In this document: piece after piece, positions 16,347 through 19,333 of the stretch
How the letters are laid out: each line of letters begins with the position of its first letter
Position numbering within the stretch: the stretch's first letter is position 1
DNA from: a bacterium
Lineage (GTDB): Bacteria; JAJVIF01; JAGGVT01
Direction of reading: 5' to 3'
Length of the DNA: 19,333 bases
Assembly: GCA_021157815.1 (NCBI GenBank)
Contig: JAGGVT010000178.1
Location: 1 to 19,333 of the forward strand
The notes under the pieces: generated by a model
Told to the model about the DNA's origin: nothing
The model's database searches: none
The model's input: only the letters and a program-made list of their open reading frames with translations
Program-made: the position numbers and the translations under genes

Positions 16347-16396
16347 TTATGCAATTGAATCCTTTTTTATCAATGCACAGCTATCTGTGGGTTCTA

Positions 16397-16425
16397 ATCA
16401 TAACCTATCGGTTAAATCAAGTCAG
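16397..16425 (-). promoter_or_regulatory. Sigma70-like promoter for cysD with palindrome in the spacer
   Basis: Read on the minus strand, CTGACT (-35, 16425-16420), a 17-bp spacer and TATGAT (-10, 16402-16397) give a good match. The start would lie near 16390 with a leader of about 44 nt before the cysD ATG at 16346. A palindrome TAACC-N4-GGTTA (16401-16414) covers the -10-proximal spacer and is a plausible operator. No regulator gene is beside it. Confidence 0.55.
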
Positions 16426-16594
16426 CTAAAAAAACTTAAACCGCGATTAATAAATTAATTGAGACCAAATCGTTTCCGGTGACAATGCCCCGTCTTCGCC
16501 CTTACCCCGCCCAGAAATCATTTTTTCCACGATTTATATTTCATATTAATTTGATTAGCAATATAACTATGCCAATGTGGATATTATATTGCAT

Positions 16595-16636
16595 ATCACA
16601 AGTGATGATTTTCGCATGACAACATCACAATTGTGA
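16595..16636 (+). promoter_or_regulatory. Two related palindromic operator candidates, centres 30 bp apart
   Basis: ATCACAAGTGAT (16595-16606) is palindromic except for its central AA. TCACAATTGTGA (16625-16636) is a perfect 12-bp palindrome. They share ATCACAA, and their centres are 30 bp (about three helical turns) apart. They precede the small ORF start by 42 bp and lie in the divergent region between cysD and the plus-strand sensory genes. A dimeric regulator binding on one DNA face is likely. No convincing -10/-35 pair could be fixed around them. The rest of 16426-16678 is AT-rich with no gene seen. Confidence 0.5.
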
Positions 16637-16678
16637 GATTGGCTTTTGCGATTAGTGAATTGAAAACGGGGTTTTGTA

Positions 16679-16849
16679 ATGAAACGATATTTAGGGAAAT
16701 TCAAGAGGTGTCGTCGTACTCTGCTTGAACATTGCCCAGCTGATGAGATAATCGGATTAAGCAGGAAAGAATCCATGCGGATTTATGCCTCACGCATTCC
16801 GCACGGTGAGTTTGTTGTGCTGAAGATTACTAATTCAAGGAGCGAATAA
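16679..16849 (+). CDS. Small basic protein, 56 residues, unknown function
   Basis: This short ORF starts with ATG at 16679, preceded by ACGGGG at about 7 bp. It ends in TAA whose last base is the A of the next gene's ATG (TAATG). That coupling is the main reason to call it real. The product starts MKRYLGKFKRCRRTLL, is Arg/Lys-rich, and ends around GEFVVLKITNSRSE. It has two cysteines (C11, C19), no signal peptide and no membrane helix. I do not recognise the family. It could be a small regulatory or adaptor protein for the sensory genes downstream, or simply a leader ORF that sets translation of the binding protein. Confidence 0.55.
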   Translation: MKRYLGKFKRCRRTLLEHCPADEIIGLSRKESMRIYASRIPHGEFVVLKITNSRSE

Positions 16850-17643
16850 TGAAGCACTTCAAATTATTTGTGATTGCAGTTTTTATTTTAGCGGCATTCA
16901 TTGCCATTTCAGGATGCACTGGAAACAACGGACAAGATAATGCCAAAAAGAAAGAACTTCTTATCTACTGTGGAATAACAATGGTTAAACCGATGGTTGA
17001 AATCGTAAAAATCATTGAGGTGCAGGAGGACTGTAAAATCATCATATCCAAGGGTGGTTCAGGGAATATGCTGAACTCCATCAAAATCAACAACGTAGGC
17101 GACTTATATCTGCCTGGTTCTGAGTCATACATTAACACATGCCTTGAGGAAGGACTTGTTACAAAAACCGCCCATATTGGCTTCAACAAAGCTGCGATGA
17201 TGGTTCAGAAAGGCAATCCGAAGAATATCACTGCTGATCTGGAAAATCTAGCCAGTGACGAGTATAGAATTGTCATCTGTAATCCAATCAGCGGGTCTAT
17301 CGGCAAGGAAACAAAGAAGATTCTGGAAAAGAAAGGAATCTTAGATGATGTTCTGGATAATGTCCTTGAACTAACAACAGATTCAAAAGATCTGACTCGT
17401 GTTCTCGTGGAAAAAGAAGCAGATTTGGTTGTCAACTGGTTTGCGACATCAACCTGGCCTGAGAACGAACCATACATCGATGTTATCCCAATTAATGATG
17501 AATATGCCGAAAAGAAAAAACTTATTATTGGTTTGCTCAAGACATCGAAATATCCTGAGATAGCTGAAAAGTTCATGGAATACGCCTCCTCTGAAAAAGG
17601 GCATGACATTTTCAACAAGTATGGTTTATACGATGTCGAGTAA
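16849..17643 (+). CDS. ModA-like periplasmic substrate-binding lipoprotein
   Basis: This 264-residue extracellular solute-binding protein resembles the molybdate/tungstate or oxyanion type. Residues 1-23 are a lipoprotein signal with lipobox AISGC (Cys23), so it is anchored on the outer face of a membrane. The mature part begins with the family strand ELLIYCGITMVKPMVEI (36-52), followed by KGGSGNML (68-75), GDLYLPGSESYI (84-95), CNPISGSIGKET (144-155) and a C-terminal helical end SSEKGHDIFNKYGL. AAGGAG lies 6 bp before the ATG. No permease or ATPase genes follow. Instead a histidine kinase starts 41 bp downstream, so the protein probably passes ligand occupancy to that kinase rather than, or as well as, feeding a transporter. 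The ligand cannot be named from sequence. Confidence 0.82.
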   Translation: MKHFKLFVIAVFILAAFIAISGCTGNNGQDNAKKKELLIYCGITMVKPMVEIVKIIEVQEDCKIIISKGGSGNMLNSIKINNVGDLYLPGSESYINTCLEEGLVTKTAHIGFNKAAMMVQKGNPKNITADLENLASDEYRIVICNPISGSIGKETKKILEKKGILDDVLDNVLELTTDSKDLTRVLVEKEADLVVNWFATSTWPENEPYIDVIPINDEYAEKKKLIIGLLKTSKYPEIAEKFMEYASSEKGHDIFNKYGLYDVE

Positions 17644-17684
17644 TCAGATTTACATTTTTGGAATTACAAAAGGGAGATTTTGAA

Positions 17685-19333
17685 ATGAAGGATATTTTTC
17701 AAGAACCAATCAAGCGTCAGATTACTATTATGGTTGTGATGTTTATTGTAGCTTGCGCTATTCTAATTGCAATCGGAGATTATACTCACAGACAGTTCCA
17801 TAATCATACTCATGAATATGAAAATCAAGTCGCCCGAAGTTCTCTTGGTGAAGTTGTTCTCAAGGAACTGCTAAACATTGAAATGAAACTGGGGCAGATG
17901 GCATCAGCAAATGACATTGGAATTGCCGATACTCGAAATGGCGAAATTAAGATATCAATCGAGAACATTGAAAGTGTCCTGCATATTCTTCAAAATGGTG
18001 GGGAATTTGATTATGTAATCCCTGTTAATTTCATTGATATGGATGAGATACATCAGCATATCTCGTTTAAGCAGGCTGAAGAGACGGATTATGTTATTGA
18101 GGTTCTGGAGCTTACTCCAAAGATTGCTGATTTCCAAATGCTGGCGTCCACTCTTGAAGAGGAAATAATCAACAGAGCAAACGCATCATCCGAAACTGAA
18201 CTTATTCATGCAGAGAGAAATATCAATCTTATAATGAAACAGGCGGAGTCAATTCAGTATCGATGCAGTGAAATAACAAACAGGATATTTTACGAAACCA
18301 ATTTAGAAATCGAACGATTGGAGAATGAACATGTCGAGTTAGCGGATCAAATCGCAAATATTCAATACACTGTGACCGCGCTAATTCTACTTGCCGGATT
18401 AACCGTGTTTCTTTTTACCATCAAGCAGGTCAGCATGATTTTAAAAGAGAGAAAGGAAGCGGAAATGTCCCTTCGCGCCAGTGAGAGACGTATTAATGAA
18501 ATAATGAATTTTGTTCAAGCTGGTGTAATGATCATTGATACTGAAACACGAGACATAATATTTGCGAACCCGGCAGCATGTGAAATTATCGGCCTGGAAA
18601 GGAATCAGATTTTAAATAACAAATGCCATAAATTCCTGTGTCCCGCTCAGGAGAATGAGTGTCCAATTCTAGACCTTGGGCAGGAAGTTGACAATGCGGA
18701 AAGGATACTTTTGAAAGCAAGCGGGGAGAAACTTGATATTTTAAAGAGGGTACAGCAAATCACACTTGATGATAAACCCTGCCTGCTTGAGACATTCATT
18801 AACATATCAGAGCGTAAAAAAGCAGCTGAACAATTAGCGGAAATGAACGAGAAACTGGAGCAGCGTGTGGAGGAGCACACTCAGAAATTGGAACAGGCGA
18901 TTGTTGTTGCGAATCAACTGACCAAGAAAGCGAATGCGGCGAATGTCGCCAAGAGTGAGTTTTTAGCCAACATGAGCCATGAGATTCGAACTCCGATGAA
19001 CGGAATCATGGGTATGACCGAGTTGCTGCTGGATACAAGTCTAAACGAGGAGCAGACAGAATTCGCTGAAACGGTTAATAACAGCGCAAATGCATTAATG
19101 GCAATTATCAATGATATTCTCGATTACTCCAGGATTGAATCCGGCAAACTGAAACTGGAGACGATTGACTTTAGCCTTCGAAACAATCTTGAGGAGATTT
19201 GTGATCTGCTCGCAGTTAAAGCCCAGGATAAGAATGTTGAATTCATTTTGCTGGTTGACCAGGATGTACCCTCACACTTAAAAGGAGATCCAACACGTCT
19301 CAGGCAAATACTTACAAACCTAATCGGGAATTC
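17685..19333 (+). CDS. Membrane sensor histidine kinase (likely hybrid), partial
   Basis: This frame is open from ATG 17685 (AGGGAG ribosome-binding site) to the window edge and gives 549 residues. TM1 lies at about 13-31, then a periplasmic region of roughly 195 residues rich in helices, then TM2 at about 228-246. A PAS domain follows (about 266-376) with cysteines C314, C319 and C326, then a coiled coil (about 378-415), HisKA with phospho-acceptor His432 in [13 protein letters not shown], and the start of the ATPase domain ending at QILTNLIGN, the N box. The HisKA style ([20 protein letters not shown]) is typical of hybrid kinases with a C-terminal receiver, which would lie beyond the edge. 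The helical periplasmic part resembles dCache-free four-helix-bundle sensors and is a plausible docking site for the binding protein encoded just upstream. Confidence 0.92.

Follow-up and report, generated by a model that had tools for sequence, protein, structure and literature searches.

A ModA-like solute-binding protein gene and a membrane kinase gene as a probable transporter-free sensory pair

When a gene for a ModA-like solute-binding protein (SBP) directly precedes one for a membrane histidine kinase, the question is whether the SBP feeds the cell or informs the kinase. For the locus described here, we consider it very probable that the two genes form a transporter-free sensory pair, in which a small ligand bound by the SBP is signaled via the sensor-domain kinase. 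The SBP probably senses an outside molecule instead of feeding the cell because, in distant phyla, no importer adjoins it and a membrane sensor does. SBPs that stimulate receptors have been described one system at a time; in the present case, the combination of a ModA-like clade with an unnamed sensor domain persists across distant phyla while the output changes. The paired loci are a ready natural set in which ligand and docking rules could be sought, and a ModA-like annotation in these genomes does not equal molybdate uptake.

Organization of the locus

The window, i.e., the whole stretch of 19,333 nt that was analyzed, is the entire contig G000:C197, so that its right-edge flank is unreadable. 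The first gene of the pair (16849..17643, plus strand, as are all features of the pair) encodes the SBP, a ModA-like lipoprotein of 264 aa assigned by its match to PF13531 (E-value 2.9e-47), the tree and the AF2 model. Its signal peptide and lipobox ISGC, with a predicted lipidated Cys23, are read from the sequence (16849..16917), and AAGGAG at 16837..16842 is the likely ribosome-binding site. A spacer of 41 bp (17644..17684), with AGGGAG at 17671-17676, leads to the ATG of the kinase gene at 17685, which is truncated by the contig end after the first 549 aa (17685..19331). The earlier note had given this gene order and these coordinates (a 56-residue ORF, lipoprotein, 41-bp gap, kinase); the sequence bears them out, and the Pfam match, signal peptide and lipobox agree with its call of a ModA-like lipoprotein.

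The kinase has the order TM1, periplasmic domain, TM2, PAS, HisKA. The periplasmic sensor domain spans residues about 37-222 (17793..18350; delimited by alignment A2 and the AF2 model), the PAS domain residues 280-376 (18522..18812; PF13426, 1.2e-10), and the HisKA dimerisation/phosphoacceptor domain, with the motif SHEIRTP, residues 422-487 (18948..19145; PF00512, 3.4e-24, 85.1 bits against a cut-off of 26.9). The protein reads up to the N-box, where the contig ends, and HATPase is present in its relatives. In the AF2 model, helices 8-74 and 170-271 contain the two hydrophobic stretches, so that the proposed architecture of a periplasmic domain between two membrane helices holds together with the PAS and HisKA matches.

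The binding protein and its receptor partner

The SBP scores 161.8 bits against PF13531 (SBP_bac_11; gathering cut-off 25) and 57.4 bits against the ModA equivalog TIGR01256, under the 62.5 cut-off, and the closest structures to its AF2 model are ModA proteins (top 4kd5, Z 25.8). Genomes of different species were scanned with this single protein as the query because alignment A1, which includes transporter relatives, lacked a region of sufficient conservation for such a scan. The scan yielded 20 close relatives; those that were aligned are 42-65% identical to the window SBP over the aligned length, up to 65% for the L021 protein, and transporter-linked SBPs are 17-30% identical to it. In the tree, 19 of 19 sensory SBPs form one clade (support 100/100) apart from 32 transporter-type SBPs. 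Two other PF13531 matches in the genome of the window were considered as a possible transporter link; by reading, one is PstS-like with permeases and the other TupA-like, so that neither provides this SBP with a transporter.

The pocket of the sensory clade carries T44 (19/19) where transporters have A/G/S, S71, G90 and W197 (19/19 each), I/V151, and S/T179 where transporters mostly have C/V. In the window SBP, T44, S71, G90, I151, S179 and W197 align to S12, S39, A58, A125, V152 and Y170, the ligand residues of E. coli ModA, which served as the reference sequence. The SBP thus resembles ModA (4kd5, 1amf) in fold, Pfam family and the retention of the ligand-donor positions, but differs in having no ModB/ModC alongside, in scoring below the equivalog cut-off, and in the changes Ser12 to Thr, Val152 to Ser and Tyr170 to Trp. 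Since the donor positions are occupied with clade-specific changes, a ModA-like donor ring appears to be kept but re-tuned.

We compiled 31 loci with SBPs of the sensory clade, the window included. A two-TM receptor with the common sensor domain is encoded directly downstream of the SBP in 27 of them, its ORF starting -83 to +38 bp from the SBP stop when longest-ORF starts are used for all 27 loci (41 bp in the window using its ATG). At three others (L022, L039 and L040), a methyl-accepting chemotaxis protein (MCP) gene precedes that of the SBP, this chemoreceptor lacking the common sensor domain, and L082 stops at a contig edge. Transporter genes do not adjoin the pair: a scan for ABC ATPases by their LSGGQ-like signature gave 0 of the 31 loci with one inside 3 kb. 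Ten further SBP loci, which came to light once the sensor model had been built, served as a test set, and the receptor is present in 9 of the 9 that are testable. Ten SBP-carrying genomes were checked for the sensor domain: it occurs exactly once in seven of them, adjoining the SBP, and is missing from the three in which the SBP is linked to an MCP. A gap in bit score separates two kinds of SBP in the Desulfobacter phylum (247 genomes). Those scoring 241-354 bits pair with receptors or an MCP (one lies at a contig end). None of 25 loci with distant ModA-like SBPs (108-141 bits) has the sensor domain, and most of these SBPs are encoded beside 5-7-TM permeases. Of six sensor-domain matches in that phylum, three adjoin an SBP and one opens a contig; the remaining two, L117 and L119, are counter-examples without a neighboring SBP. 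The conserved neighborhood strongly supports the view, advanced in the earlier note, that SBP and kinase act as one sensory unit independent of a transporter. A missing neighborhood in relatives, which the note named as a refutation, is not what these loci show; as for its other condition, permease and ATPase genes past the right edge, the contig breaks off inside the kinase, and none have been seen in the relatives. Of the three genes grouped in the note, the SBP and receptor co-occur and the small ORF does not.

Several loci deviate from the simple pair. The genome of L119 encodes two sensor-domain kinases roughly 55 kb apart, one paired and the other, at L119:4923-6959, without an adjoining SBP. 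In L121 (G1069:C360), the SBP and receptor genes occur in an apparently identical tandem copy, which is either a real duplication or an assembly artefact. Perhaps an independent SBP-receptor pair is encoded at L057:1441-3656, where another ModA-like SBP, of more distant kinship, adjoins a 483-aa two-TM sensor-like protein lacking the common sensor domain.

No family was found in Pfam for the sensor domain of the window kinase or those of the relatives checked. Its AF2 model (pLDDT 88.1) consists of helix 8-74, helix 78-104, hairpin 106-128, helix 138-165 and helix 170-271, a predicted four-helix bundle with a beta hairpin, and the residues invariant in alignment A2 are N47, Q48, A50, G55, L102, G105, G106, N115, L143, R193 and E196 (numbering of the window kinase). 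The fold matches include 4k0d (Z 14.4), LytS-N of XylFII-LytS (Z 14.2) and TorS of TorS-TorT (Z 12.9), but designed and unrelated bundles score equally, and between helical bundles a Z of 12-14 can arise by chance. The A2 profile run against PDB chains gave no LytS or TorS match at E<=1.

Ligand and alternative readings

Our reading of the pair is a portable cassette of SBP and receptor, free of a transporter, for sensing a small anion. We propose that the lipid-anchored SBP takes up its small ligand, an oxyanion most likely, in the periplasm, and that the ligand-bound (or empty) form would dock on the kinase, at the four-helix bundle of its sensor domain, and thereby change the kinase activity, in whichever direction. 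An oxyanion is plausible and somewhat favored as the ligand because the ModA donor positions are retained with clade-specific changes; the same pocket may nevertheless hold something else, since at T44 and S179 the transporter relatives have other residues. The oxyanion suggested in the earlier note is thus plausible on the strength of the retained donors.

The membership of PF13531 and the ModA proteins as closest PDB relatives would also fit a role in molybdate or tungstate transport, with the permease and ATPase encoded at another place in the genome and the kinase being incidental or regulating uptake only. The pairing with a receptor in 27 of 31 loci, the lack of an ABC ATPase signature within 3 kb at all 31, the score under the modA equivalog cut-off, and the placement in a clade apart from transporter-linked SBPs, with its own T44 and S179, argue against such a role, which we regard as highly unlikely. 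A functional unit of three, in which the 56-aa ORF (16679..16849, plus strand) joins the SBP and the kinase as the earlier note had it, draws on the 1-bp overlap of this ORF with the SBP start (TAATG). The SBP gene, however, has a ribosome-binding site of its own; the codon score of the ORF is borderline (5% of chance ORFs score as well, and 6% of real gene pieces as poorly); it has no match in Pfam or NCBIfam; and no homologue better than E=0.2 was found in 13 other genomes, ten of them with the SBP. Because of the codon score and the missing homologues, the ORF is left out of the module, and its partnership is very improbable.

The genomic context bears on a narrower version of the sensory pair. 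In the window, cysD and cysN-C are divergent from the SBP pair, and the intergenic region (16347..16678, no strand assigned) contains the palindrome TCACAATTGTGA at 16625-16636 and the related TCACAAGTGA at 16596-16605, a possible operator. Sulfur-type neighbors are also seen at L022 and in the L028 group: Sulf_transp-TusA (TusA by reading) lies downstream in the Marinisporobacter locus, and a sulphur globule protein gene (PF17228, 4.3e-20) upstream of the SBP in some Thiodiazotropha loci. These neighbors and the palindrome speak for a sulfur oxyanion as the ligand, be it sulfate, thiosulfate or sulfite, and for control of the divergent cysD/cysN-C genes by the pair. Against this stand the unrelated neighbors at most other loci, the ModA-like rather than Sbp/CysP-like nature of the SBP, and the sulfotransferase and polysaccharide genes that adjoin the cys genes of the window and may be their real context. 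A sulfur oxyanion as the ligand is therefore unlikely in our estimate, and so is the control of the cys genes by the pair; the sulfate-related ligand considered in the earlier note finds echoes in a few loci and not in most. Nitric-oxide-type neighbors occur as well, namely NnrS in L028-L031 and L033, CbbQ/NorQ-like in L080 and Hcp-like in L021 (by reading), and no ligand is assigned from neighbors because no theme is common to most loci. Elsewhere in the genome of the window, TCACAATTGTGA recurs in two places only, each with one mismatch.

Spread, known systems and outputs

SBPs of the sensory clade are present in at least six named phyla, with hosts that include Gammaproteobacteria (Thiodiazotropha symbionts), Bacillota, Thermodesulfobacteriota, Lentisphaerota, Cloacimonadota and Gemmatimonadota. 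They are rare. Five groups were sampled, all of them with one or more seed genomes, and the SBP was found in 5 of 247, 1 of 341, 4 of 321, 3 of 124 and 3 of 288 genomes; it is missing from the three class-mates of the genome of the window. This patchy distribution fits horizontal transfer. The SBPs have a mean identity of 61% and their sensor domains 39%, and the two sets of identities correlate (r 0.88, Mantel 0/5000; kinship among species uncorrected), suggesting that the SBP is held tight and the sensor drifts while both vary together. The SBP and sensor trees agree on the main supported groups, i.e., the Gammaproteobacterial group and L083 with L091, and both recover a Lentisphaerota-Cloacimonadota group with identical inner order. 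The Neomarinimicrobiota label of L025 is distrusted because this locus is 91-93% identical to the Gammaproteobacterial L024; the contig is probably mis-binned.

The closest parallel in organization is AioX-AioS, with ArxX and ArrX, in which arsenic-oxyanion SBPs are paired with a kinase (PMC5908839). AioX is a structural homologue of PhnD, and AioX and its orthologues are the only signaling members of their family (PMC5908839). The likeness lies in the transporter-free SBP encoded beside a kinase, the putative oxyanion ligand class and the cross-phylum spread; the SBP here differs in being PF13531/ModA-like, in having no arsenic genes in sight and in having outputs beyond kinases, and no phosphonate-binding SBP family matches it in Pfam at E<=1. 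In XylFII-LytS and TorT-TorS, the SBP docks on a helical-bundle sensor of a kinase; the fold may be similar and docking is likewise proposed here, but the present sensor domain has a beta hairpin and no sequence match to the LytS or TorS chains. The XylFII and TorT SBPs belong to other families. NspS, a polyamine SBP, controls the membrane GGDEF-EAL protein MbaA (compare ScrB-ScrC), as we propose for the Gammaproteobacterial members here. The SBP-receptor pair would work like these four systems; by sequence tests, it appears to fall outside AioX-AioS, TorT-TorS and XylFII-LytS, and it is likened to NspS-MbaA by function. Among SBPs of the oxyanion type, the ModA-like clade would represent a sensory branch of its own. 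A search of the open-licence literature brought up no account of receptors of this kind paired with a ModA-like SBP.

Pfam matches identify HisKA/HATPase or HATPase kinases in L021, L026, L027 and L032, HK-REC in L080 and L092, HK-REC-Hpt in L083 and L091, PAS-PAS-GGDEF-EAL in L023, and PAS without a kinase in L081. L024, L025, L028-L030, L033 and L035-L038 resemble L023 when the sequences are read by eye; reading also shows hybrid kinases in L122 and L123 and the Cys-rich tail of L081 in L120 and L121. A gene for a REC-HD response regulator adjoins that of the L091 hybrid kinase and may point to c-di-GMP. The same type of SBP and sensor domain would thus drive GGDEF-EAL c-di-GMP enzymes, hybrid kinases and a kinase-less PAS protein, and at three loci the SBP might act on a chemoreceptor beside it instead of a sensor-domain receptor. 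We tentatively suggest, at somewhat less than even chances, that the conserved oxyanion-type SBP and its previously unnamed sensor domain are a horizontally spreading cassette that connects the same ligand to the output which each lineage has attached, be it phosphorelay, c-di-GMP, chemotaxis or a cysteine-tailed PAS effector.

Where a sensor-domain protein has neither kinase nor cyclase, its C-terminal end is a conserved Cys-rich tail, PICxxCxKIRDDxGYW...FSHGICPxC. Such proteins are encoded at L081:7261-8901, L117:5730-6692, L118:121-1680, L120:6004-7338 and L121:2879-5068.
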